A DNA stretch of 64,000 nt from the NCBI GenBank assembly GCA_029959605.1, contig JASCOC010000002.1, positions 1 to 64,000 of the forward strand, in the 5' to 3' direction. The notes below the pieces were generated by a model. It ran no database searches. It had not been told where the DNA came from and was given only the letters and a program-made list of their open reading frames with translations. Each line of letters opens with the position of its first letter. The stretch's first letter is position 1. The position numbers and the translations under genes were made by a program. Origin of the DNA: Lysobacteraceae bacterium PS02340. GTDB lineage: Bacteria; Pseudomonadota; Gammaproteobacteria; Xanthomonadales; Xanthomonadaceae. Of the stretch, positions 3,049-40,030 are shown in pieces.

Positions 3049-4914
3049 TCAGCGCGCGGACGCCTCCACCCATGCGTCCACACGACGCTCGAGCAGATCC
3101 AACGGCAACGCGCCGCCGCCGAGCACCGCATCGTGGAAACCGCGCACGTCGAAACGATCGCCGAGCCGCTCTTCGGCGTTCTTGCGCAGTTCCTGGATGC
3201 GGATCATGCCGATCTTGTAGGCCGTCGCCTGGCCCGGCCACGACAGATAGCGCTGTACTTCGGAGCGGATCGTCGCTTCGGGAAAGCCGCTGTTGTCGTT
3301 GAAGTAATCGACCGCCTGCTGCTCGGTCCAGCCCTTGGCATGCATGCCGGTGTCGACGACCAGCCGGATCGCGCGCCACAGCTCGGAACTCAGCTGGCCG
3401 TAACGCGAGTAGGGATCGGCATAAGTGCCCGGAATTTCCTTGGCCTGCCACTCCGAATACAGGCCCCAGCCTTCCGAATACGCGGTGGTCTGGTACTGGG
3501 TGCGGAACTGCGGCAGGCCGGTGAGCTCCTGCGCGATCGCGATCTGCATGTGATGGCCGGGCAGGCCTTCGTGATACGCGATGACTTCCAGTTCCGGCTT
3601 CGGCATCGCGTTCATGTCGGACAAATGCGCGTAGTAGATGCCGGGTCGGGTGCCGTCCGGGCTGCTCGGGAAATAGTGCTGCGCGGCGCCGGGTTCTTCG
3701 CGGAACGATTCGACGCGGCGCACGACCAGATCGGCCTTCGGCAGCAGACCGTAGAACTGTGGCAGTTGCTGCTTGATGTTGTCGAGCAGGCGCGTGGATT
3801 CGTCGAGGTACGCCTGGCGGCCGGCATCGGTGTTCGGGAACTTGAACTGCGGATCGGTGGCGATGAAGCGGAAGAACGCCTGCAGGTCGCCGTCGAAGCC
3901 GACCTCGTTCTTGATCGCCTCCAGATCCTTGTGGATGCGCGCCACGTCCTGCAGGCCGATGTCGTGCACCTGTTCGGGCGTCAGGTCTGTGCTGGTGTTG
4001 CGACGCAGCTGCGAGGCGTAATACGCCTTGCCGTTGGATTGTGTCGTGCCGACGCCGGCGGGATTCTCCAGTGCGTTGCCGATGTCGCCCTCTTGCCACG
4101 CGATCACACGCTGGTAGGCGGGGCCGACGGATTCCAGCAGCGCCGCGCGTGCCTGGGTCTTGAGCGCATCGGCTTTCGCCGCGTCGATCGTCCCCGCCTC
4201 GCGCAGCGCGTCGGCCTTCTTGACCAGATCGGCCCACAGCGCGGTGTCGTCGCCCTGCGAGAACGGCGCGCCGGTGATCACGTTGCGCGACTGGGTGATG
4301 ACGCCGGTGTAGGCGAACTTCGGCGCGCGCATGCCGGCGTCCGCGCTGGCCTGCGCATGTTCGAGCAGGGTGTCGAACATCGTCGGCAGCGCGCGCAGTC
4401 GCGCGATGTAGGCGAGGTAGTCGGCTTCGCTGTCGACCTTGTGGAAGTTGATCAGCAGCGTCGGCAACATCGCCTGCGGTCCCATCATCTGGGTGAAGGC
4501 GTAGCCGTTGCGGCGGTACTCGAACTGTTCGGCCGCCTCGCGCGCCTGCTGCGCCCACAGTTCGTAGGACAACCTGCCTTCGAGATCGAGCGCATCGACG
4601 TCGAAGCTGCGCTCCATCTCGGCAACGCTCGCACGTTGCCACGCGAGCTGCTTTTCCATCGCGGCGTCCGACACGTCGTCGAGCTGGTCGTACAGCTCCT
4701 TGCGGCCGAGGAAGGTCAGCCCGATCGGGCTGAAGCGCAGCGAGGTTTCGTACTGCTGGTCGAGCCAGGCATTGAGGCGCGCGGTCTCGGCCGCGGGCGG
4801 CGCCTGGGTCATCGCCGTCGGCGCGGCGCCTGTGGCGGGCGCGGTCTGCGCATGGACGGGCAGGGCGAGTGCGAGCGCAAGGGCGAGCGTGGTGACGGCA
4901 GGCAGTCGGGGCAT
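3049..4914 (-). CDS. Exported DUF885 family protein (putative metallohydrolase)
   Basis: The protein has about 621 residues. A signal peptide (MPRLPAVTTLALALALALPVHA) suggests export to the periplasm or outer surface. The rest matches the DUF885 family, whose members carry a zinc-protease-like HExxxxH-type motif. Here HEGLPGHH is visible around residue 448, and VIAYHEGLPGHHM is the family hallmark. Function is unproven; a peptidase is the usual guess. The start could also be an ATG three codons earlier (4923). Longer frames would cross the infA terminator hairpin and are unlikely. Confidence 0.85.
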   Translation of the reverse strand: MPRLPAVTTLALALALALPVHAQTAPATGAAPTAMTQAPPAAETARLNAWLDQQYETSLRFSPIGLTFLGRKELYDQLDDVSDAAMEKQLAWQRASVAEMERSFDVDALDLEGRLSYELWAQQAREAAEQFEYRRNGYAFTQMMGPQAMLPTLLINFHKVDSEADYLAYIARLRALPTMFDTLLEHAQASADAGMRAPKFAYTGVITQSRNVITGAPFSQGDDTALWADLVKKADALREAGTIDAAKADALKTQARAALLESVGPAYQRVIAWQEGDIGNALENPAGVGTTQSNGKAYYASQLRRNTSTDLTPEQVHDIGLQDVARIHKDLEAIKNEVGFDGDLQAFFRFIATDPQFKFPNTDAGRQAYLDESTRLLDNIKQQLPQFYGLLPKADLVVRRVESFREEPGAAQHYFPSSPDGTRPGIYYAHLSDMNAMPKPELEVIAYHEGLPGHHMQIAIAQELTGLPQFRTQYQTTAYSEGWGLYSEWQAKEIPGTYADPYSRYGQLSSELWRAIRLVVDTGMHAKGWTEQQAVDYFNDNSGFPEATIRSEVQRYLSWPGQATAYKIGMIRIQELRKNAEERLGDRFDVRGFHDAVLGGGALPLDLLERRVDAWVEASAR

Positions 4915-18789: not shown

Positions 18790-20211
18790 ATGCTCTGGGC
18801 CTGTCTTCTCCTGCCGCAACTGGCGCTCGACGCCGTTCTCCGTCGTCTGCCGGATCCCGACGCACCGTTCGCGCTGGTCGAAGGGCCCGCGCAGCTGCGC
18901 ACGCTGCACAGCGTCAACGACGCGGCCGGCGCGCATGGACTGAAGGCCGGCATGCGCCTGTCGGCCGCGCATGCGCTGCTGGCCGATGTGCGCACGCAAC
19001 CGCACGATCCGCTGGCCGAATCGACGGCGCATCGCTTTCTGGCCGCCTGGGCGTATCGCCATAGCTCGCTGGTGAGCCAGCAGTGGTCGCGCGCGATCGT
19101 GCTCGAAGTGCAGGCGAGCTTCCGCCTGTTCGGGCCGTGGTCGCAGTTCGAACGCACGCTGCGCGAGGAACTGTCGGCGCTGGGTTTCGCACATCGCATC
19201 GCGCTCGCGCCGTCGCCGACCGCCGCGCGGGTGCTGGTGGGTCTGCGCGATGGATTCGCGGTCACCGGCGCTGCGGACCTGTCGGCGCTGCTGGATCGCA
19301 CGCCGGTGCGTCGTGCCGCATTGCCGGGCGATGCCGGCGAACGTCTGTACCGCATGGGCGTACGCACACTCGGCGCATTGCGTGAATTGCCCGGCGCAGG
19401 CGTGCAACGCCGGTTCGGCGGGGACGTGCTGGCGCACGTGCGCAGGCTGTATGGCGAGAGCGACGATCCGGTCGCCTGCTACACGCCGCCGGACCGCTTC
19501 GACATGCGCGTCGAGCTGGGTTACGAAGTGGAAGCGCATCCGCCGCTGCTGTTTCCGTTGCGGCGCCTGATCAACGACCTGTGCACGTATCTGTCCGCGC
19601 GCGATGGTGGCGTGCAGCGTTTCGTGATCGGGCTGGAGCATGAAGAAGGCAGTACCGATGTCGAGGTCGGCCTGCTCGCGCCCGAGCGCACGTCGACGAT
19701 GCTGTTCGAACTCGCGCGCAACCGGCTCGAACGCACCGAAATCGCCAGGCCCGTCGTCGCGATGCGCCTGCTCGCGCGCGAGCTGCCGCCGTTCGTGCCG
19801 GCCGCGCGCGATCTGTTCGATACGCGGCCGCAGCAGGCGCTCGACTGGCCGCATCTGCGCGAACGTCTGCGCGCGCGGCTCGGCGACGATGCGGTCTATC
19901 GCGTGACACCAGCCGGCGATCCGCGCCCCGAACGCGCATGGTCGCGCCGCATCGGCGATGGCGGTGGCGCGATTGCGGATGCGCCTGCGCGTCCGCCGCG
20001 TCCGGCCTGGCTGCTGCCGCAACCTGTACCGCTGCACGATGCCGGCCTGCGTATCGTGTCCGGGCCGGAGCGTCTGGAAAGCGGCTGGTGGGACGATGCC
20101 GATGCGCGCCGCGATTACTACGTCGTGGAAACCCGCGAGGGCCAGCGCGGCTGGGCCTTCGTGCCGCCGGGCCGCTTCGACGGCTGGATGCTGCACGGCT
20201 GGTTCGCATGA
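18790..20211 (+). CDS. imuB: ImuB, inactive Y-family polymerase-like protein
   Basis: ImuB is a Y-family polymerase homologue that lacks catalytic residues and bridges the beta clamp, ImuA and DnaE2. The 473-residue product starts [19 protein letters not shown]. It carries the polymerase-like fold ([51 protein letters not shown]) without the acidic triad expected of an active enzyme. The C-terminal part ([22 protein letters not shown]) is typical of ImuB. Its stop overlaps the dnaE2 start by ATGA, so the two are translationally coupled. Confidence 0.93.
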
Positions 20212-23200
20212 GCTGGGACGATGCGATCGACGGCGTCGACCGCGACACGCCGGGCAGCCATGTGCCGCGTGCGCTGCGCGTGGCCGGGCGTCTGCGTGCG
20301 GCCGCGAACGACGACGTCGCCCACGACACCCGCGACGATCTGCCGGCATACGCAGAGTTGCACTGCCTGTCGGATTTCTCGTTCCTGCGCGGCGCGTCCA
20401 GCGCGGAGCAATTGTTCGCGCGCGCCGTGCACTGCGGCTACAGCGCGCTCGCGATCACCGACGAATGCTCGCTCGCCGGCATCGTGCGCGGGCTGGAGGC
20501 GTCGGAGGAAACCGGACTCAAGCTGATCGTCGGCAGCGAGTTCCGGCTCATCGACGACACGCGTTTCGTGCTGCTGGTCGAAACCCGCGCGGGCTATGCG
20601 CAGCTGTGTGCGCTGATCACGCGCGGCCGCCGCGCGGGCACCAAGGGCCAGTACCGGCTCTCGCGCGCGGATGTCGAAGCCGAATTCCGCGGGACAACAC
20701 CCGGGGTTTTCGCCGTGTGGTTGCCGGGTGCGACACCCGAAACGGGGCAGGGTGCGTGGCTGCGCGAGGTGTTCCCGGACCGGACCCATCTGGCGGTGGA
20801 ACTGCACCGCGAACGTGACGATGCCGAGCGTCTCGCCGCGTTGCTGGCACTGTCGCGCACGCTCGGCATCCCTGCTGTCGCCAGTGGCGACGTGCACATG
20901 GCGACGCGACGCGAACGCATCCTGCAGGACACGCTGACCGCGATCCGCCACACCACACCGATCGCCGACTGCGGCGAACATCTGTTCCGCAATGGCGAAC
21001 GGCATCTGCGTTCGCGGCGCGCGCTCGGCAACATCTACGGCGCCGACCTGATGCAGGCCGCTGTCGATCTCGCGGCGCGGTGCAGCTTCGGCATGCGCGA
21101 ACTGCATTACGACTATCCGGTCGAGCTGGTGCCCGAAGGACATACGCCGACGACGTGGTTGCGTCATCTGACGGAAGAGGGCATCCGCGTCCGCTGGCCG
21201 GACGGGCCCACCCCCAAGGTCCGCGAGCTGATCGATTTCGAGCTTGCACTGATCGCGAAGCTGAAGTACGAGGCGTTCTTCCTAACGGTCGCCGACATCG
21301 TCCGCTTCGCCCGAGGCGAGGGCATCCTGTGCCAGGGCCGTGGCTCGTCGGCGAATTCCGCGGTCTGCTACGCGCTCGCCATCACCGCGGTGAATCCGGA
21401 CGACACCCGCCTGCTGATGGCGCGCTTCCTGTCGGAGAACCGCAACGAGCCGCCCGACATCGACGTCGACTTCGAACACGAACGGCGCGAAGAGGTCATC
21501 CAGTACGTCTACGCAAAGTACGGCCGCGAACGCGCCGCGCTGGCGGCGACGGTTATCGCCTACCGCGGCAAGAGCGCCGTGCGCGATGTCGCCAAGGCTT
21601 TCGGTCTGCCGCCGGACCAGATCGCATTGCTCGCCAATTGCTATGGCTGGGGCAATGGCGAGGCGCCGATGGAACAGCGCATCAGCGAGGCAGGGTTCGA
21701 TCTCGACAATCCGCTGATCGGCAAGATTCTCGTCATCACCGAGATGTTGCGCGACCACCCGCGGCATCTGTCGCAGCACGTCGGCGGTTTCGTGATCTCC
21801 AACGAACCGCTGTCGCATCTGGTGCCGGTCGAGAATGCGGCGATGGACAACCGCACGATCATCCAGTGGGACAAGGACGATCTGGAGACCATGCAGCTGC
21901 TGAAGGTCGATTGTCTCGCGCTCGGCATGCTGACCTGCATCCGCAAGGCGCTGGATCTGGTGCGCGGCCAGCGCGGACGCGATTTCGAGATCGCGAACCT
22001 CCCGCGCGAGGATGCGCAGACCTACGCGATGATCCAGATCGCCGACACCGTCGGCGTGTTCCAGATCGAATCCCGCGCGCAGATGGCGATGCTGCCGCGG
22101 CTCAAGCCGAAAGAGTTCTACGACCTCGTGGTCGAAGTCGCGATCGTGCGGCCGGGTCCGATCCAGGGCGACATGGTGCATCCGTATCTGCGACGCCGGC
22201 AGGGACACGAGCTGGTGACGTATCCGTCCGAAGGCGTGCGCGAGATCCTCGGGCCGACGCTCGGCGTGCCGCTGTTCCAGGAGCAGGTCATGGAGCTGGT
22301 GATCCACGCCGGCTACAACGCCGACGAGGCCGATGGCCTGCGTCGTTCGATGGCGGCCTGGCGTCGCGGCGGCGACATGGAGCCGCACCGCCTGCGGATC
22401 CGCGGGTTGATGGAAGACAAGGGCTACGCGTCAGAGTTCATCGACCAGATCTTCGACCAGATCAAAGGCTTCGGCTCCTACGGCTTTCCGCAGAGCCACG
22501 CCGCCTCGTTCGCGAAGCTCGTCTACGCCAGTTGCTGGCTCAAGCGGCACGAGCCGGCGGCCTTCGCCTGCGGCCTGCTCAATGCGCAACCGATGGGGTT
22601 CTATTCGCCGAGCCAGATCGTGCAGGACGCACGTCGCGGCAGTCCGCATCGCGCGGCGGTGGAGGTGCTGCCGGTCGATGTGATGGTCAGCGATCGCGAT
22701 TGCACGCTGGTCGGCGGACGTCCGTGGCGCAGTTACGCCGATCCCGGCGCGCAGCCGGACATCCGGCTCGGCCTGCGTCTGGTCGCCGGCTTGTCGGACA
22801 CCATGGCCGACGCGATCGTCGCTGCACGCGCGCGCCGGCCGTTTTCCAGCGTCCAGGATCTGTGCCTGCGCGCCGGCCTCGACGAGAAGGCGCGCAGCGT
22901 GCTCGCCGAGTCCGGTGCGCTCGCCTCGCTGGCCGGGCATCGCAACGCGGCGCGTTGGGCGGTCTCGGGCATCGAGCGGCAACGGCCGCTGCTGCCGGGC
23001 AGTCCCGACGAAGACGTGGTCGAACTCCCGGAGCCGCGTGCGGGCGAGGAGATCCTGTCCGACTACCGCAGCACCGGCCTGACGCTGGGCCAGCACCCGA
23101 TGGCCCTGCTGCGTGCGCAGATGGCCGAGCGCCGGATCATCGGCCTGCGCGATCTGCAGCAGCGCCGGCACGGCAGTGGGGTGCACGTCGCGGGCCTCGT

Positions 23201-23456
23201 GACCCAACGCCAGCGACCGGCGACGGCCAAGGGCACGATCTTCGTCACGCTGGAAGACGAGACCGGAATGATCAACGTGATCGTCTGGCCGCACCTCGCG
23301 TTGCGGCGTCGGCGTGCGTTGCTGGAGTCGCGGCTGCTCGCGGTGCGCGGTCGCTGGGAACGCGTGGACGGCGTCGCCCATCTGATCGCCGGCGACCTGC
23401 AGGACCTCAGCGGCATGCTCGGCGGCATGCAGCTGCCGTCGCGGGATTTCCACTGA
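20208..23456 (+). CDS. dnaE2: Error-prone DNA polymerase DnaE2
   Basis: DnaE2 is the C-family polymerase that performs damage-induced mutagenic synthesis with ImuA/ImuB. The 1082-residue protein has an N-terminal PHP domain ([22 protein letters not shown]) and the catalytic aspartates in PDIDVDFEH (D417, D419 and D421 region). The fingers/clamp part includes [20 protein letters not shown]-terminal OB fold ([20 protein letters not shown]) follows, and the tau-binding tail of replicative DnaE is absent. Length is normal. It is the last gene of the LexA2-controlled operon. Confidence 0.96.
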
Positions 23457-24328: not shown

Positions 24329-24430
24329 CGGGGCGCCCCCCCCCCCCCCGGGGCGGCGCCCCCCCCCCCCGGGGGGGGTGGGGCGGGGGGCCGGCGGCGG
24401 GCCGCCCCCCCCCGGCCGGGGGGCGCGCGC
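24329..24430. other. Low-complexity G/C homopolymer tract, probably unreliable consensus
   Basis: The stretch contains runs of 14 C (24336-24349) and 12 C, then G8, G6 and more C runs, with almost no A or T. It resembles the first 50 bases of the window and is unlike any natural intergenic sequence nearby. It lies after the methyltransferase stop and interrupts no gene. The 248 bases between the methyltransferase and terC hold only this tract, the hairpin repeat at 24432 and unremarkable sequence. Confidence 0.6.
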
Positions 24431-33901: not shown

Positions 33902-35134
33902 TTAGGCAGCGCGCGGCCGGGTCCGCGGCAGCAGCGCGGTGGCCAGGCCGAGCAGCGGCAGGAACGCGGTGACCTGGTAGACCCAGACGATGCCGCGCGC
34001 ATCTGCGAGCTGACCGAGTGCGGCCGCGCCGATGCCGCCGATGCCGAACATCAGGCCGAACATCAGGCCCGAGATCATGCCGACGCGGCCGGGCACGGCT
34101 TCCTGTGCGTAGACGACCAGCGCGGCGAAGGCCGAGGACATCACCAGACCGATGAGCACCGCGAGCACCGCCGTCATCGCCAGACCGACGTGGGGCAGGG
34201 CGAGCGCGAACGGCGCGACGCCCAGGAAGGAAATCCAGATCACCGCCTTGCGGCCGATGCGATCGCCGATCGGACCACCCGCGAACGTGCCCAGCGCGAT
34301 CGCGCCGAGGAACAGGAACAGATAGACCTGGCTCTGTTGCACGCTCACGCCGAAGCGCTGGATCAGATAGAAGGTGAAGTAGTTGGTGAACGAGGCGATG
34401 TAGACGAACTTCGCGAACATCAGCACCGACACCACCGCGATCGCCTGCACGATCTTGCCGCGCGGCAGCCCCGTGCCGCGGGTGACCGCCAGACGCGTCA
34501 GGCGCGCCTGGCCATGCAGCACCGTCCATTTCGTCAGCCGCAGCAGCACGAACACGGCGAGCGCTGCGACCAGCAGAAACCACGCAATGGCAGACTGGCC
34601 GTGCGGAATCACGATCGCCGCGGCCAGCAAGGGACCGATTGCCGAGCCGGTATTGCCGCCGACCTGGAATGTCGACTGCGCCGTGCCGAAGCGTCCGCCC
34701 GAACCCATTCGCGCCACGCGCGAGGCTTCGGGGTGGAAGGTCGCCGAGCCCACACCGACGATCGCCGCAGCGACGAGCAGCATCGAATAGCTGTGCGCCA
34801 TCGCCAGCACCGCGATGCCCACGAACGTCACCGCCATGCCGGACGGCAGCAGCCAGGGCAGGGGGCGCTTGTCGGTGTACAGACCGATCCACGGCTGCAG
34901 CAGCGACGCGGTGATCTGGTAGACCAGCGCGATCACGCCGATCTGGCCGAAGTCCAGATCGAAATCGCCTTTCAGCATCGGGAAGATCGCCGGCAGCATC
35001 GCCTGGATCAGATCGTTGAGCAGATGCGCGAACGCCGCCGCACCGACGACGCGGATCGCGAAGCCCTGGGGCGGGGCGGAGAGGTCGGCTGCGGGCGCAG
35101 CCGAGGCTTCAGGGCGGTGTACGGGATCGGACAT
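33902..35134 (-). CDS. MFS transporter, fosmidomycin resistance (Fsr) type
   Basis: The product has 410 residues, or 427 if an ATG at 35185 is used. It contains 12 membrane segments and the Fsr-family features LLNDLIQAMLPAIFPMLKGDF in the first helix, STFQVGGNTGSAIGPLLAA, and GMISGLMFGLMFGIGGIGAAALG near the end. Members export small molecules; the substrate here is not known. It lies 211 bases upstream of mdcA on the same strand, so it could be linked to malonate use, but the operator before mdcA suggests a separate unit. Confidence 0.82.
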   Translation of the reverse strand: MSDPVHRPEASAAPAADLSAPPQGFAIRVVGAAAFAHLLNDLIQAMLPAIFPMLKGDFDLDFGQIGVIALVYQITASLLQPWIGLYTDKRPLPWLLPSGMAVTFVGIAVLAMAHSYSMLLVAAAIVGVGSATFHPEASRVARMGSGGRFGTAQSTFQVGGNTGSAIGPLLAAAIVIPHGQSAIAWFLLVAALAVFVLLRLTKWTVLHGQARLTRLAVTRGTGLPRGKIVQAIAVVSVLMFAKFVYIASFTNYFTFYLIQRFGVSVQQSQVYLFLFLGAIALGTFAGGPIGDRIGRKAVIWISFLGVAPFALALPHVGLAMTAVLAVLIGLVMSSAFAALVVYAQEAVPGRVGMISGLMFGLMFGIGGIGAAALGQLADARGIVWVYQVTAFLPLLGLATALLPRTRPRAA

Positions 35135-35402
35135 CGGAATGCGATGGCGTTCCGGCGTGGCGCGGCGGCGTGCGTCAGCAGACATCCGCTGAGCATCGCG
35201 GCCGGGCGACTGCGCCGGATGCGCGGGTCATGTGGGGGCTGCAGATTAGAGCCTTGCGCAGCGCCTGTCTTGCGCGGCGGCGACACGGTCTGTCGCGTTC
35301 TGGATGTCGACGGTGCATGGGATCGGGTCGGACCGCCGCGAAGTGCGTGATCACCGGCGGTGCAGGGTGATGCCCGCGTGTCCATGCGACCGGCGTCGCC
35401 GC

Positions 35403-35430
35403 TCGACAAACGTGTGCGTCTCCTTAGAAT
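35403..35430 (+). promoter_or_regulatory. Predicted promoter of the second DUF4124 gene
   Basis: TCGACA (35403-35408) and TAGAAT (35425-35430) are 16 bases apart, close to the sigma-70 consensus. Transcription would start near 35436, about 24 bases before the ATG at 35460. The rest of the gap between the MFS start (35134) and this gene holds nothing else I can identify. Confidence 0.5.
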
Positions 35431-35459
35431 CCGGCGTTCAGGGGATGGAGTTTCAACGA

Positions 35460-35873
35460 ATGGATTCGATGTCGAAGCGGCTTGCGCTGCTCGTCGTGCT
35501 GGCGTGGTCCGTCCCGGCAGCCGCACAGCACGTGTACAAATGCGTCAACTGGCAGGGCGCGGTGACCTACCAGTCCGAGCGTTGCAGTGATCGCGACCGG
35601 ATCGATCGCGTGTACGACACGAACCGCGAGATCGAGGTCGATGGTCGGGTCGTCCGCAACTTCGTGCCCAGCACGGCTGCAAACGATCCCGGACTGTCGC
35701 GGCGCTACGGCAGCCCGCAGAACGCCGATGGCAGTTACAAGTCGGATGCGCTGTGCGGTGTCGTGACCGCAGCGACCCATGGCCACCGGCGTTACCGGAA
35801 CATCGAAACACTCGCGGGGGATGCGCGGCTGCGTTCCGCGCATTGCAATCACACGCGCGGTCCGGGCGGCTGA
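35460..35873 (+). CDS. Exported DUF4124 domain protein
   Basis: The 137-residue protein has a signal peptide (MDSMSKRLALLVVLAWSVPAAAQ) followed by the DUF4124 module VYKCVNWQGAVTYQSERC, in which two cysteines bracket a small beta structure. The C-terminal part has two more cysteines (DALCGVV and SAHCNHT). GGAG about 9 bases upstream favours the ATG at 35460. It is a diverged relative of the protein at 16530-16949. The role is unknown; such proteins are common in xanthomonads. Confidence 0.8.
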   Translation: MDSMSKRLALLVVLAWSVPAAAQHVYKCVNWQGAVTYQSERCSDRDRIDRVYDTNREIEVDGRVVRNFVPSTAANDPGLSRRYGSPQNADGSYKSDALCGVVTAATHGHRRYRNIETLAGDARLRSAHCNHTRGPGG

Positions 35874-36042
35874 AAGTCCGCGAAGTCGATATGCTCGCTC
35901 GCAACAGGTGCAGCCGTGGAGCGATCCAGCCTTCGTCCATCGAACGCCGATGTCCGGAGCTGGATCGGGACTGACGCGCGGGCAGTGGACGGACGCCTTC
36001 AATCGTGTCGTGCCGCGAGACGGCAACTGTGCGGATGCCGCG

Positions 36043-37049
36043 TCAGTCCGGTTTTACCTGCACGACGACCTTGCCCCTCGCGCGGCCCTTGCCCAGGTGG
36101 ACGAGGGCCGCGTGCGCCTGGTCGAACGGGAATACCCGGTCGATCACGGGCCGGATCCGGCCGGATTCGAGCAGCGCGGCGATCTCCGCAAGTTGCGCGC
36201 CGTCCGGGCGCACGAACAGAAACGAGTAGGCGAGCCCACGCTGCTTCGCGAGGCGCCGGATCTTCCGGCTCATCCATCCGAACACCAGCGCCAGCAGGCC
36301 ATTGAGCTTGCGCGCACGGGCGAACGCCGGGTCGAGCGGCCCGACCAGCGAAACGATGCGGCCGCCGGGTTTGAGGATGCCGACGGACTGTTCGATCACG
36401 TCGCCACGCAGCGTGCCGAGTACGACGTCGTAGTCGCGCAGCACCGTGTCGAACGTGTCCTGCATGTAATCGACGACTTCATCCGCGCCCAGATCACGTA
36501 CCAGCGTCACGTTGATGGTGCTGGTGGTCGTGCCGACGTGTGCGCCCAGATGCTTCGCCAGCTGGATCGCGAACGTGCCGATGCCGCCAGACCCGGCAGG
36601 CACGAACACCTTCTCGCCAGGTTCCAGATTCGCCCGCTCGCGCAGTGCCTGCCAGGCGGTCAGGCCGACCATCGGGATCGACGCGGCCTGCACGAAATCG
36701 AGATTGGCCGGCTTGTGGGCGGCGACGCGCTCGGGCACCGCTGCGAACTCCGCAAGTGACCCCTACCCAGATCGAACAGACTCGCGTAAACCGCATCGCC
36801 CGGCTTGAAGCGCGTCACGTTCCGGCCGACCTCGACCACGATGCCCGACAGATCGCTGCCCAGCGTCGCCGGCAGATCGAACTTCAACACGGCCTTGAAG
36901 GTGCCGGTCGGTATCACGTTGTCGATCGGGTTCAGACCCACCGCGTGGATCTGGACCAGCAGTTCGTCCGGGCCCGGGACCGGGCGCGGCACATCGCTGA
37001 ACCCGATATCCGGCGACTTGCCGTAACGCTTGAACGTGAGTGCCTGCAT
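36043..37049 (-). pseudogene. NADP-dependent MDR oxidoreductase, frameshifted
   Basis: The N-terminal part (from MQALTFKRYGKSPDIGFSDV at 37049) and the C-terminal part (ending GKGRARGKVVVQVKPD at 36043) belong to one zinc-independent quinone oxidoreductase-like MDR protein of about 335 residues. The NADP-binding GSGGIGTFAIQLAKHLGA lies in the second part. They are in different frames. The shift occurs at a run of four C (36760-36763); one more base there would restore GSLAEFAAVPERV. It is either a real inactivating deletion or a homopolymer sequencing error. It follows the SDR gene on the same strand. Confidence 0.8.
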
Positions 37050-37116
37050 CGTGGTGCGTCCTTGAACTTGCGTGGGCCTGGCCGTTCGCAATGCGACCGG
37101 CCGCGTCTGAAGTGGA

Positions 37117-37905
37117 TCAGCGCGTGGCGAGATACCGCTCGGCGGCATGCGCCTGGCGCAGATCCGACATCAGGCCCAGACGCGCGCCTTCCAGCGCATC
37201 CCAGCGTTCGGCCACGTGCAGCGGCGGAATGGTCACGGCTTCGCGCCGGTCGAACCCCACGAGCGCGGCATCCACCAGTTCGGCGGTGTCCATCAGATCG
37301 GGGAGGGTAGTGGGATCGACGCCTGCCCGGCCCCAGATCTCGGTTCGCGTGCCGGCGGGCAGCACGGCCTGCACGTAGGCACCCTTCGGGCCGAGCTCCA
37401 GACGCAGTCCCTGCGAGAGATACAGCAGGAATACCTTTGTCGCGCAGTAGACCAGCGCGCCGAATTCCGGTGCGAAGCCGACCACCGATCCGATGTTGAC
37501 GATCGCGCCTGCATCCGACTGGGCGAGGCGTGGCGCGATGGCCGCTGCGAGTTGTGTCGGCGCCGTCGTATTGAGCGCGATCAGGCGTGCGACGCTGTCG
37601 CTCGACTAGTCGAGAAAACCGCCGGACTGGGCCGCGCCAGCGTTGTTGATCAGGATGCCGATGCGTGCGTCGGTGCGCAGGCGCGCGGACACCGCTTCGA
37701 GATCCTGCGGATGCGTCAGATCGGCGCGCAGTACATCGATCTTGACCCCGGTCTCGGTGTGCAGACGGGCGGCCAGTGCCTCCAGGCGGGACTGGTCGCG
37801 CGCAACCAGCACGAGATCGTGGCCCCGCTGTGCGAAGCGTTCGGCGTAGACGGCACCGATGCCACTGGAGGCGCCGGTGATCAGGACTGCGGGAAGGTCA
37901 TTCAT
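37117..37905 (-). pseudogene. Short-chain dehydrogenase with an in-frame amber codon
   Basis: A 262-residue SDR is complete apart from codon 100. It begins MNDLPAVLITGASSGIGAVYAERFA with the cofactor-binding TGxxxGxG, then NNAG, the catalytic Ser in VNIGSVVGF and YCATK. Codon 100 is TAG (37606-37608) in the context GGFLD-stop-SSDSVARLIALN. Relatives usually have Gln there, so a C-to-T change (CAG to TAG) is the simplest explanation. The reading frame is intact on both sides. It is divergent from the tetR gene and upstream of the frameshifted MDR gene. Confidence 0.8.
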
Positions 37906-38011
37906 GGCATCGGCTTCGCGTTGATTGATCGATCGAGGTCGGCCCGTTCCGGGTCGGTGGACGGCACACCGCGCGCCCGCCGAACAATGATGATGACCGT
38001 AATCTTTGGAG

Positions 38012-38040
38012 TCAATGAATTGATGATGATCGACATCAAT
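38012..38040. promoter_or_regulatory. Candidate TetR operator between SDR and tetR
   Basis: Two inverted repeats overlap here: TCAAT-GA-ATTGA (38012-38023) and ATTGATG-N8-CATCAAT (38019-38025 with 38034-38040). They lie 37 bases before the tetR ATG and about 107 bases before the divergent SDR start. TetR proteins normally bind such palindromes to control themselves and a divergent neighbour. Confidence 0.55.
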
Positions 38041-38076
38041 GTATGCTTGTCGCCGGACTCACGAGGAGACGGCGGC

Positions 38077-38667
38077 ATGCGGGTGACCAAGGCACAGGCA
38101 TCGGCGAACCGGGCACGCGTGGTGGAAACGGCCTCTGCGCTGTTCCGGGAGCGCGGTTACGACGGCGTGGGCGTCGCCGACCTCATGGCCGCCGCCGGGT
38201 TCACCCACGGCGGGTTCTACAAGCAGTTCCAGTCCAAGGCGGATCTCATGGCCGAGGCCGCCGCCTGCGGGTTCGAACAGGTCGCGCAACGCGCCGCGGC
38301 ACAGACGCCAGCCGATTTCATCGCGTATTACCTGTCGCGCGAGCACCGCGACCATCGCGGCGCCGGCTGCACGATGGCCGCACTCGGTGCGGATGCGGCA
38401 CGGCAGTCGTACGCCGTCAGGGCGACGTTCGCAGAAGGCATCGAGGGTCTGCTGGCCGACATCCAGAAAGCCAAGGGCGAGGCCGCGTCGCCAGACGGCA
38501 GACAGGCCTCACGCGCAGAGACGCTGGAGATGATGGCGCGCCTCGTCGGCGCGCTGGTGTTGTCACGTGCATGTCCGGACGACTCGGCGCTGGCGGATGA
38601 AATTCTGGAAGCGTGTCGGGGCAAAGCGTCCGACACGCGACAGAAGAGCGGCGCCGAAGCGGCTTGA
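38077..38667 (+). CDS. TetR family transcriptional regulator
   Basis: The 196-residue repressor has an N-terminal helix-turn-helix (VVETASALFRERGYDGVGVADLMAAAGFTHGGFYKQFQSKADL, read in parts) and a ligand-binding C-terminal domain. GAGGAG lies 8 bases before the ATG. It is divergent from the SDR/MDR pair, so it probably represses those oxidoreductase genes and itself through the palindromes in the intergenic region. Unlike its presumed targets it has no visible disruption. Confidence 0.9.
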   Translation: MRVTKAQASANRARVVETASALFRERGYDGVGVADLMAAAGFTHGGFYKQFQSKADLMAEAAACGFEQVAQRAAAQTPADFIAYYLSREHRDHRGAGCTMAALGADAARQSYAVRATFAEGIEGLLADIQKAKGEAASPDGRQASRAETLEMMARLVGALVLSRACPDDSALADEILEACRGKASDTRQKSGAEAA

Positions 38668-38707
38668 TACGTGGAGGGCGCCGTCTCGGGTCAAATCTTA
38701 AACTTCG

Positions 38708-38723
38708 CATAATGTACATTATG
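38708..38723. promoter_or_regulatory. Orphan perfect 16-bp palindrome
   Basis: CATAATGTACATTATG is an exact palindrome with an AT-rich composition that stands out in this GC-rich genome. It lies in the 124-base gap between the convergent tetR and copB genes, where no promoter is needed for either. It looks like a regulator binding site whose target gene is absent. Confidence 0.5.
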
Positions 38724-38750
38724 TAAGAAATGGAGTGATGCTGCGGAGTC

Positions 38751-38781
38751 GCAGGTGGCGCCCATTCCGGGCGCCACCTGC
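38751..38781. terminator. Bidirectional hairpin between tetR and copB
   Basis: A 13-bp perfect stem (38751-38763 with 38769-38781) with an ATTCC loop lies 10 bases beyond the copB stop and about 85 bases beyond the tetR stop. There is no T tract on either side. It is probably a termination or mRNA 3'-end structure for the copper operon. Confidence 0.55.
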
Positions 38782-38791
38782 TCAACCATCC

Positions 38792-40030
38792 TCAGAACCA
38801 GGTCCGCAAGCCGATCACGATCCGGGTGTCGTCCGGTGCTTCACCCATGGCGTCCCGCAGATCCCGGGTATCGCCGTACGCGCGCTCGTGTACGACGCCG
38901 ATGTAAGGCGCGAATCTGCGGGTGAACTCGTAGCGCAGTCGCAGGCCGGCTTCGGCCTTGGCCAGTCCGCTGCCGATGCCGCGGGCAGGATCGTCGCGGC
39001 GCGCCAGTTCGAGTTCGACCACGGGCTGCAGGATCAGGCGGTTCGTCAGCAGCAGTTCGTATTCGAGTTCGAGCTCGCCGATGACCTGGCCGCCTTCACC
39101 GGCATACGCCATCGCCGAGACCTCGAACATGTACGGCGCGAGCCCCTGGATGCCGACGGCCGCGAACGTCTGTGACGGGCCCGGCCGAAACGACTGCCGG
39201 GCGCCGGCGACGACGTCCCACCACGGCGAGATGCTGCGTCCGTAGAGCACGTCGAGATCCGCAGCATGGGTGCGCCCTGCACTGCGCTCGCCGCTGGCCT
39301 TCAACCACAATCGATCGGTGTCGCCGCCGATCCAGGCATCCGCTTCCCAGGCCTGGCCGCTGCCGTGGTCGCCATCGAATGCCTCCAGCCTGTCGATCCG
39401 TACGAAGCTGCGGATCGCGTCGCCGTGCATCTCGTGACCATGCAGATGCGCGGGAAACGCGGCGGCGCGATCGGCATCGGTGATCGCTGGCAGCGGTTCG
39501 CGCGGCGGATGGTCGGCCGGTAGATCGCCGGCTGGTTGCGCGGCTTCACTTCGATGATGCGCGTGCGCGTCGTCGGTTGCGGGTGGCATCTCCGGCTTGC
39601 TGGATTCCGGTTGTCCCGCGTGACCTGTGTGACCTGCGTGTGCCGAATGATCCTGCGCAGTGTCGGATTCGGCACCTCCGCGATGCTGCGCATGCGGGTC
39701 ATCTGCACGCTTGTCGTTCCCGGCCGCAGGGTCCGCGTGCCCGCTTCCATGTGCCGGATGCGCGGCCGCCGGGGCCGCTTGGGGGCGAGGTGTCGCGGCG
39801 GGTTCTGCGGGCGTGCGGTGATGTGCGTGGGGATCTGTAACCGGTGACGTCGCGGGTTTCGACGCGCGTGGTCGCTGCGGCGTCGCGCGCGGCGGCGTCG
39901 GCTTCGCTGCAGGCTGCGTGGCCGGCGGATGATGCCCATGCGCGCTGTGCTGCGCGTGCGCACTCCCGATCGCGGTACACAATGCGGCGGCCAGAACGCC
40001 GGTGCGCAGGAGTGTCGATGAGGCGCTCAT
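38792..40030 (-). CDS. copB: Copper resistance outer membrane protein CopB
   Basis: CopB is an outer membrane protein of the plasmid-type cop system. The 412-residue precursor has a signal peptide (LLRTGVLAAALCTAIGSAHA). A long low-complexity region rich in His, Ala and Pro (about 28-215), with many HxH-type copper ligands, follows. A C-terminal beta-barrel domain contains LWLKASGERSAG, WWDVVAGARQSFRPGPSQT and a final aromatic residue (LRTWF). Its ATG overlaps the copA stop (ATGA). The His-rich region is longer than the barrel's minimal need and is probably a metal sponge. Confidence 0.93.
   Translation of the reverse strand: MSASSTLLRTGVLAAALCTAIGSAHAQHSAHGHHPPATQPAAKPTPPRATPQRPRASKPATSPVTDPHAHHRTPAEPAATPRPQAAPAAAHPAHGSGHADPAAGNDKRADDPHAQHRGGAESDTAQDHSAHAGHTGHAGQPESSKPEMPPATDDAHAHHRSEAAQPAGDLPADHPPREPLPAITDADRAAAFPAHLHGHEMHGDAIRSFVRIDRLEAFDGDHGSGQAWEADAWIGGDTDRLWLKASGERSAGRTHAADLDVLYGRSISPWWDVVAGARQSFRPGPSQTFAAVGIQGLAPYMFEVSAMAYAGEGGQVIGELELEYELLLTNRLILQPVVELELARRDDPARGIGSGLAKAEAGLRLRYEFTRRFAPYIGVVHERAYGDTRDLRDAMGEAPDDTRIVIGLRTWF

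Follow-up and report, generated by a model that had tools for sequence, protein, structure and literature searches.

A redox cassette with two broken oxidoreductase genes beside an unbroken TetR gene, very likely at an early stage of decay, in a member of the Lysobacteraceae

The locus and the xdo operon

The xdo operon of Agrobacterium bohemicum (XdpR-XdpB-XdpA) comprises genes for a TetR regulator, an Old Yellow Enzyme and an SDR enzyme, has an operator studied by gel shift and is reported to be widespread in Proteobacteria, including Xanthomonas and Stenotrophomonas (PMC5891007). Decay of genes by operon has been described in Shigella, where decayed genes concentrate in certain operons and one inactivation is said to relax selection on others (PMC3218036).

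We analyzed a stretch of 64,000 nucleotides at the start of contig JASCOC010000002.1 of Lysobacteraceae bacterium PS02340 (hereafter, the window). The genome (3.70 Mb in 81 contigs) is Luteimonas-like and its sister genome G064 belongs to the same genus, very probably Luteimonas. A DNA comparison with 60 relatives, G064 not among them, yielded no close copy of the locus (longest match 629 bases, 66% identity); G064 surfaced in a protein search of the genus, and on one contig it carries an intact MDR gene, an intact SDR gene with Gln at codon 100, and TetR. Positions in the sister stretch are prefixed L118 in the following list of features and below.

36043–37049, minus strand: MDR (quinone-oxidoreductase-like) gene, a probable pseudogene, with a one-base frameshift and a two-frame match to the sister MDR
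36757–36769, minus strand: stretch that holds the one-base shift and nearby substitutions, from the blastn alignment to the sister
37117–37905, minus strand: SDR oxidoreductase gene, a probable pseudogene of 262 codons with one in-frame TAG; intact sister orthologue at L118:7012-7800
37606–37608, minus strand: TAG, codon 100 of the SDR gene, a Gln codon in 80/80 homologous loci
37987–38015, minus strand: sigma-70-like promoter match toward the SDR gene, by consensus match only, adjoining the operator-like repeat
38020–38039, no strand: operator-like inverted repeat TTGATG-N8-CATCAA between the divergent TetR and SDR genes
38077–38667, plus strand: unbroken TetR-family regulator gene (PF00440; 196 aa), divergent from the SDR gene
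38708–38723, no strand: perfect 16-bp palindrome CATAATGTACATTATG downstream of TetR; sister copy at L118:8603-8618

The unit is an xdo-like cassette of divergent TetR, SDR and MDR genes, which we do not file as a member of xdo because it lacks the Old Yellow Enzyme and the operator sequence of that operon. The likeness lies in the divergent TetR-family gene, which in xdo encodes a repressor whose operator, an inverted repeat, spans both promoters (PMC5891007), and in the SDR gene, broken in the window and intact in the sister. Unlike xdo, the window and the sister stretch have an MDR gene and lack an Old Yellow Enzyme, of which tblastn (E ≤ 1e-20) found no copy in the window or in 16 kb of the sister; three PF00724 genes lie elsewhere in the window's genome. 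The repeats also differ, the operator being TCATGA-N6-TCATGA in xdo (PMC5891007) and the operator-like repeat TTGATG-N8-CATCAA in the window, where TCATGA is absent from the intergenic stretch 37906–38076, and a further difference is that both window enzymes are broken. Membership in the CurR equivalog NF058643 was rejected at a score of 37.8 bits, below the family cut-off of 300 bits.

SDR matches at E ≤ 1e-30 were found in 3 of 52 genus genomes, the window's own included, and TetR matches at the same threshold also in 3 of 52, one of them only 46% identical; the cassette is therefore accessory in the genus. The SDR match lies at a contig end in the genus genome G067 and in Luteimonas salinisoli (NZ_JACCKA010000031.1). 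A wider search confirmed 120 SDR relatives, of which the best 80 were kept as loci with fetched flanks. Divergent TetR genes occur in 56 of these 80 and the window's own gene arrangement in 5, and an MDR of at least 60% identity occurs within the flanks in 44, before the SDR gene in 17 and after it in 27. Old Yellow Enzyme is present in 57 of 83 related loci, lying between TetR and SDR in a Xanthomonas locus (L036; PF00724). SDR relatives at E ≤ 1e-40 were found in 360 plasmid records, and two plasmids carry the orders TetR-SDR-MDR (L153) and TetR-SDR-OYE-MDR (L152); their MDRs share 50% and 54% identity, respectively, with that of the sister, and the TetR of L152 is only 39% identical.

Two lesions in adjacent enzyme genes

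The SDR gene (37905–37117, minus strand) translates in a single frame that retains its natural stop at the end. Its one TAG in an otherwise open frame of 262 codons lies at codon 100, as the earlier note had claimed, and the note's reading of the triplet as a former Gln codon is borne out by the sister and by 80/80 loci (43 CAA, 37 CAG; best 80 of 120 relatives), all of which have a frame open over 251–273 residues. When these relatives were examined for recoding of TAG, none of the 80 carried TAG at that codon. The two halves of the gene match PF00106 (adh_short) at profile positions 2–93 and 101–188. Classical SDR enzymes carry a nucleotide-binding TGxxxGxG motif and a catalytic YxxxK motif; the gene encodes TGASSGIG and YCATK, the latter behind the stop. 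The intact sister SDR has its best PDB sequence match in the short-chain dehydrogenase 4bmv_A (E 3e-119, residues 2–259 of 262) and also matches the alcohol dehydrogenase 6zdz_A (E 2e-116, residues 2–258 of 262); unlike these, the window copy is truncated.

The TAG lies at the centre of a 14-bp palindrome (37601–37614), and template-guided mutation by this palindrome was considered as its cause. We dropped this candidate because palindromes of this kind are common, with 54 perfect 14-bp ones in 204 kb of the window's contig, and because the changed pair is central and would not be templatable by a hairpin. In the same 204 kb (the window and 140 kb beyond), CTAG is seen 40 times against about 610 expected from base composition, and the SDR nonsense creates one of the 40 sites.

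The MDR gene is intact in the sister (335 aa, L118:5938-6945) and falls into two frames in the window, where Pfam places a GroES-like domain (PF08240) in the N part, from 37049, and PF13602/PF00107 in the C part, to 36043. The one-base shift claimed in the earlier note thus stands against the sister, and its exact assignment to a run of four C does not: blastn places the gap at 36765/36766, two bases beyond the C4 run at 36760–36763, and 3 of the 6 bases directly before it differ from the sister. The shift can accordingly be located only approximately, and a homopolymer slip is no more than a candidate for its origin. In the PDB, the sequences that best match the intact sister MDR are the enone/quinone reductases 4ida_A (ripening-induced protein), 2vn8_A (RTN4IP1) and 5a3j_A (chloroplast quinone-oxidoreductase homologue), all distant (best E 4e-53); the window copy differs from them in being frameshifted. 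Of the 44 loci with a close MDR, 42 contain the two halves of the gene in frame with each other, and the remaining two are cut at the stretch end. Three MDR homologues were flagged for stops, of which two proved to be natural ends and one an in-frame TAG at residue 146, in Xanthomonas sp. LMG 31884 (L064, position 5155), which is one of those 42 loci; this is an independent break of the same MDR gene.

We considered it very improbable that the fragments are functional, be it by readthrough or recoding of the stop or as separate or shortened proteins. As such a reading would have it, the frames before and after each lesion do remain open, and ORFs of 122 aa and 231 aa that start with GTG lie downstream. 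The absence of TAG from codon 100 in the 80 loci argues against it, as do the in-frame MDR halves in 42/42 loci holding both, the different kinds of the two lesions, the position of the SDR YxxxK motif behind the stop, and the lack of any Rfam family at gathering score in 35000–39500. Reversible switching of the genes by phase variation is extremely improbable: the MDR lesion does lie near a short homopolymer, but the SDR point nonsense could not be reversed by slippage. Four bases also make a short tract for switching by slippage.

Comparison with a sister species, which the earlier note had proposed at strain level, showed that the corresponding locus of the sister has both enzyme genes unbroken, with 90% nucleotide identity, and the flanks of the cassette are 91–92% identical. 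On the far side of TetR, the 16-bp palindrome at 38708–38723 stands at the edge of the synteny block shared by window and sister, and at this point the sister carries an additional stretch of about 2.4 kb that includes TniB and TniQ genes (L118:8603-11065), perhaps a transposon remnant. On the other side, genes for a methyltransferase, a cupin and a flavodoxin lie in the sister (L118:3716-5930) where the window has about 150 unrelated bases; at this junction (35860–36070) matches to the sister are scattered and just 11–16 bases long. The possibility that these three genes are lost parts of the operon was rejected: none of the 83 related loci, most of them with about 4 kb of flank, matched the methyltransferase or the cupin gene, and one (L107) matched the flavodoxin gene. 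Since they are nearly absent from these loci, they are probably an insertion in the sister.

The assembly is a draft in 81 contigs and the MDR frameshift lies close to a short C run, which raises the question whether the operon is intact and the two lesions arose in sequencing or assembly. We took the genes that a simple codon-usage script called in the sister stretches (127 + 144 = 271) and compared them against a 204-kb part of the window's contig, in which alignments longer than 400 bases take up 175,910 bases; a gene was testable if 85% covered at ≥70% identity. A match was obtained for 162 of the 271 genes, comprising 149 testable genes, 2 partly covered and 11 below the identity limit. 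Two of the 149 were broken on the window's side, namely the SDR and MDR neighbours, and the other 147 showed no lesion, over about 176 kb aligned in which a frameshift in the last ~7% of a gene could escape. Random sequencing error is unlikely because only these two neighbours are broken; two lesions placed at random among 149 genes have a chance of about 1.3% of hitting neighbours. Also against error, one of the two lesions is a substitution, and the SDR missense changes at near-invariant sites (see below) point the same way as decay. We hence hold error to be unlikely, and the claim that the two genes each carry an independent lesion is upheld, with a nonsense in one gene and a frameshift in the other. 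The reverse comparison had 148 of 167 genes testable and flagged 2 in the sister, one by a two-frame match and one by a near-terminal stop.

Other features of the window were recorded in the course of the analysis. A DUF885 gene (3049–4914) is open in the window, with a sister match in two frames joined at codon 198, and its first part is only 79% identical to the sister. At 18790–23456 a Y-family-like gene (PF00817) is followed by a DnaE-type polymerase gene, which together we take to be, probably, an imuB-dnaE2 mutagenesis cassette. A pair of perfect 16-bp palindromes, composed of runs of C and of G, lies at 24363–24423, its members 45 bases apart.

Selection on the three genes

Measured against the sister, dN/dS is 0.152 for SDR (11th of 149 genes), 0.145 for TetR (13th) and 0.113 for the 3' part of MDR (30th), with a median of 0.067 over the 149 genes. 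These values are highish, yet the genes were clearly constrained for most of the time, and the low dN/dS therefore indicates that the loss is recent. If SDR had been neutral since the split, about 67 nonsynonymous changes would be expected in the window lineage, taking half of dS, and about 9 are seen (13% of expectation, upper bound 24%). The SDR and MDR genes are thus probably recent pseudogenes.

We then asked where the differences between window and sister fall relative to near-invariant columns, defined as conserved at ≥95%, using as baseline 159 close outgroup pairs that are not mutually independent, so that the statistics serve as guides. Differences in such columns number 6 of 19 for SDR, the stop included (172/3726 in outgroup pairs), 0 of 24 for TetR (19/888), 0 of 15 for the MDR C part (18/399) and 2 of 4, one per lineage, for the MDR N part (25/535). 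For SDR the share is far above that of the close homologue pairs; for TetR and the MDR C part it is not. Without the stop, SDR differs from TetR (5/18 vs 0/24; Fisher 0.010), and the TetR count has a chance of about 0.0003 under random placement over columns. This count has little to say on the brief period after the lesions arose, because most of the TetR divergence predates them and the test has little power for a loss as recent as this.

Polarised by homologues, the SDR changes comprise 9 window-derived (stop included), 5 sister-derived and 5 unresolved. The corresponding counts are 1, 3 and 0 for the MDR N part, 4, 4 and 7 for the MDR C part, and 3, 4 and 17 for TetR. Residue 154 of SDR is Gly in 80 homologues, Cys in the window and Asp in the sister; one change added by hand to each lineage gives 9 missense changes in the window lineage and 6 in that of the sister. 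Near-invariant columns hold 4 of the 9 (binomial 0.0005) and 2 of the 6 (binomial 0.03), both on few events. Since the sister SDR has two changes of its own at near-invariant sites, some relaxation of SDR may predate the split. As far as these few events go, the sign of lost constraint appears to lie mainly in SDR, and none appears in the MDR C part.

The unbroken switch and a model of decay

The undamaged TetR gene and the palindromes that the earlier note placed beside the lesions are confirmed: the frame 38077–38667 is open, and both the 20-mer at 38020–38039 and the 16-mer at 38708–38723 are in place. TetR is 88% identical between window and sister, and the operator-like 20-mer is identical. 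A promoter consensus scan of 37850–38120 gave one match against a mean of 0.0 in shuffles. Of 58 regions upstream of TetR, 53 contain the looser pattern TTGA-N10-14-TCAA, a raw pattern count that includes window and sister; one of the 53, L076, has it only at another position. In whole-genome searches the stricter TTGATG-N8-CATCAA turned up exactly once in the window's genome and once in that of the sister, alongside 8 and 10 one-mismatch sites, respectively. A search of the window's genome for exact sites gave no further TetR target.

The earlier note had suggested recent loss of selection on the whole unit. This is supported in part: the sign of lost constraint appears to lie mainly in SDR, and no decay is seen in TetR, with its 0/24, or in the operator-like repeat, which is identical in the sister, although a very recent relaxation of TetR may have occurred. 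We find it improbable that selection still maintains TetR and its single exact operator now that both known target enzymes are dead.

We propose that this accessory TetR-SDR-MDR redox cassette is, very likely, at an early stage of decay. In intact relatives, TetR would bind TTGATG-N8-CATCAA over the divergent promoters, most likely repressing itself and the enzymes, and would be released by a small reactive carbonyl or electrophile or an enone-like compound, which SDR (acting on carbonyls or alcohols) and MDR (on enones or quinones) would then process. In the window lineage, SDR would have lost constraint and acquired its stop, so that SDR perhaps broke before MDR; the downstream MDR would then have lost value, and possibly expression by polarity, and acquired its frameshift, leaving a strain with an unbroken switch and a dead output. 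Operon-wise decay, in which loss of one gene relaxes others, is the simplest account of both lesions (PMC3218036). The Shigella case involves hundreds of operons, whereas here a single operon is affected, in a genome with few lesions over the part compared. That decayed genes cluster in operons was known from that study, and the lesion pair is an ordinary early case of it with no new mechanism.

The survey points to an operator-like repeat common to xdo-like redox cassettes of Beta- and Gammaproteobacteria. If the repressor outlives its regulon, TetR would have another role, or targets outside the operator pattern. The locus would offer a clean snapshot of early operon decay, in which the enzymes are broken, the switch and the promoter-like site are unbroken, and an intact copy is present in the sister.
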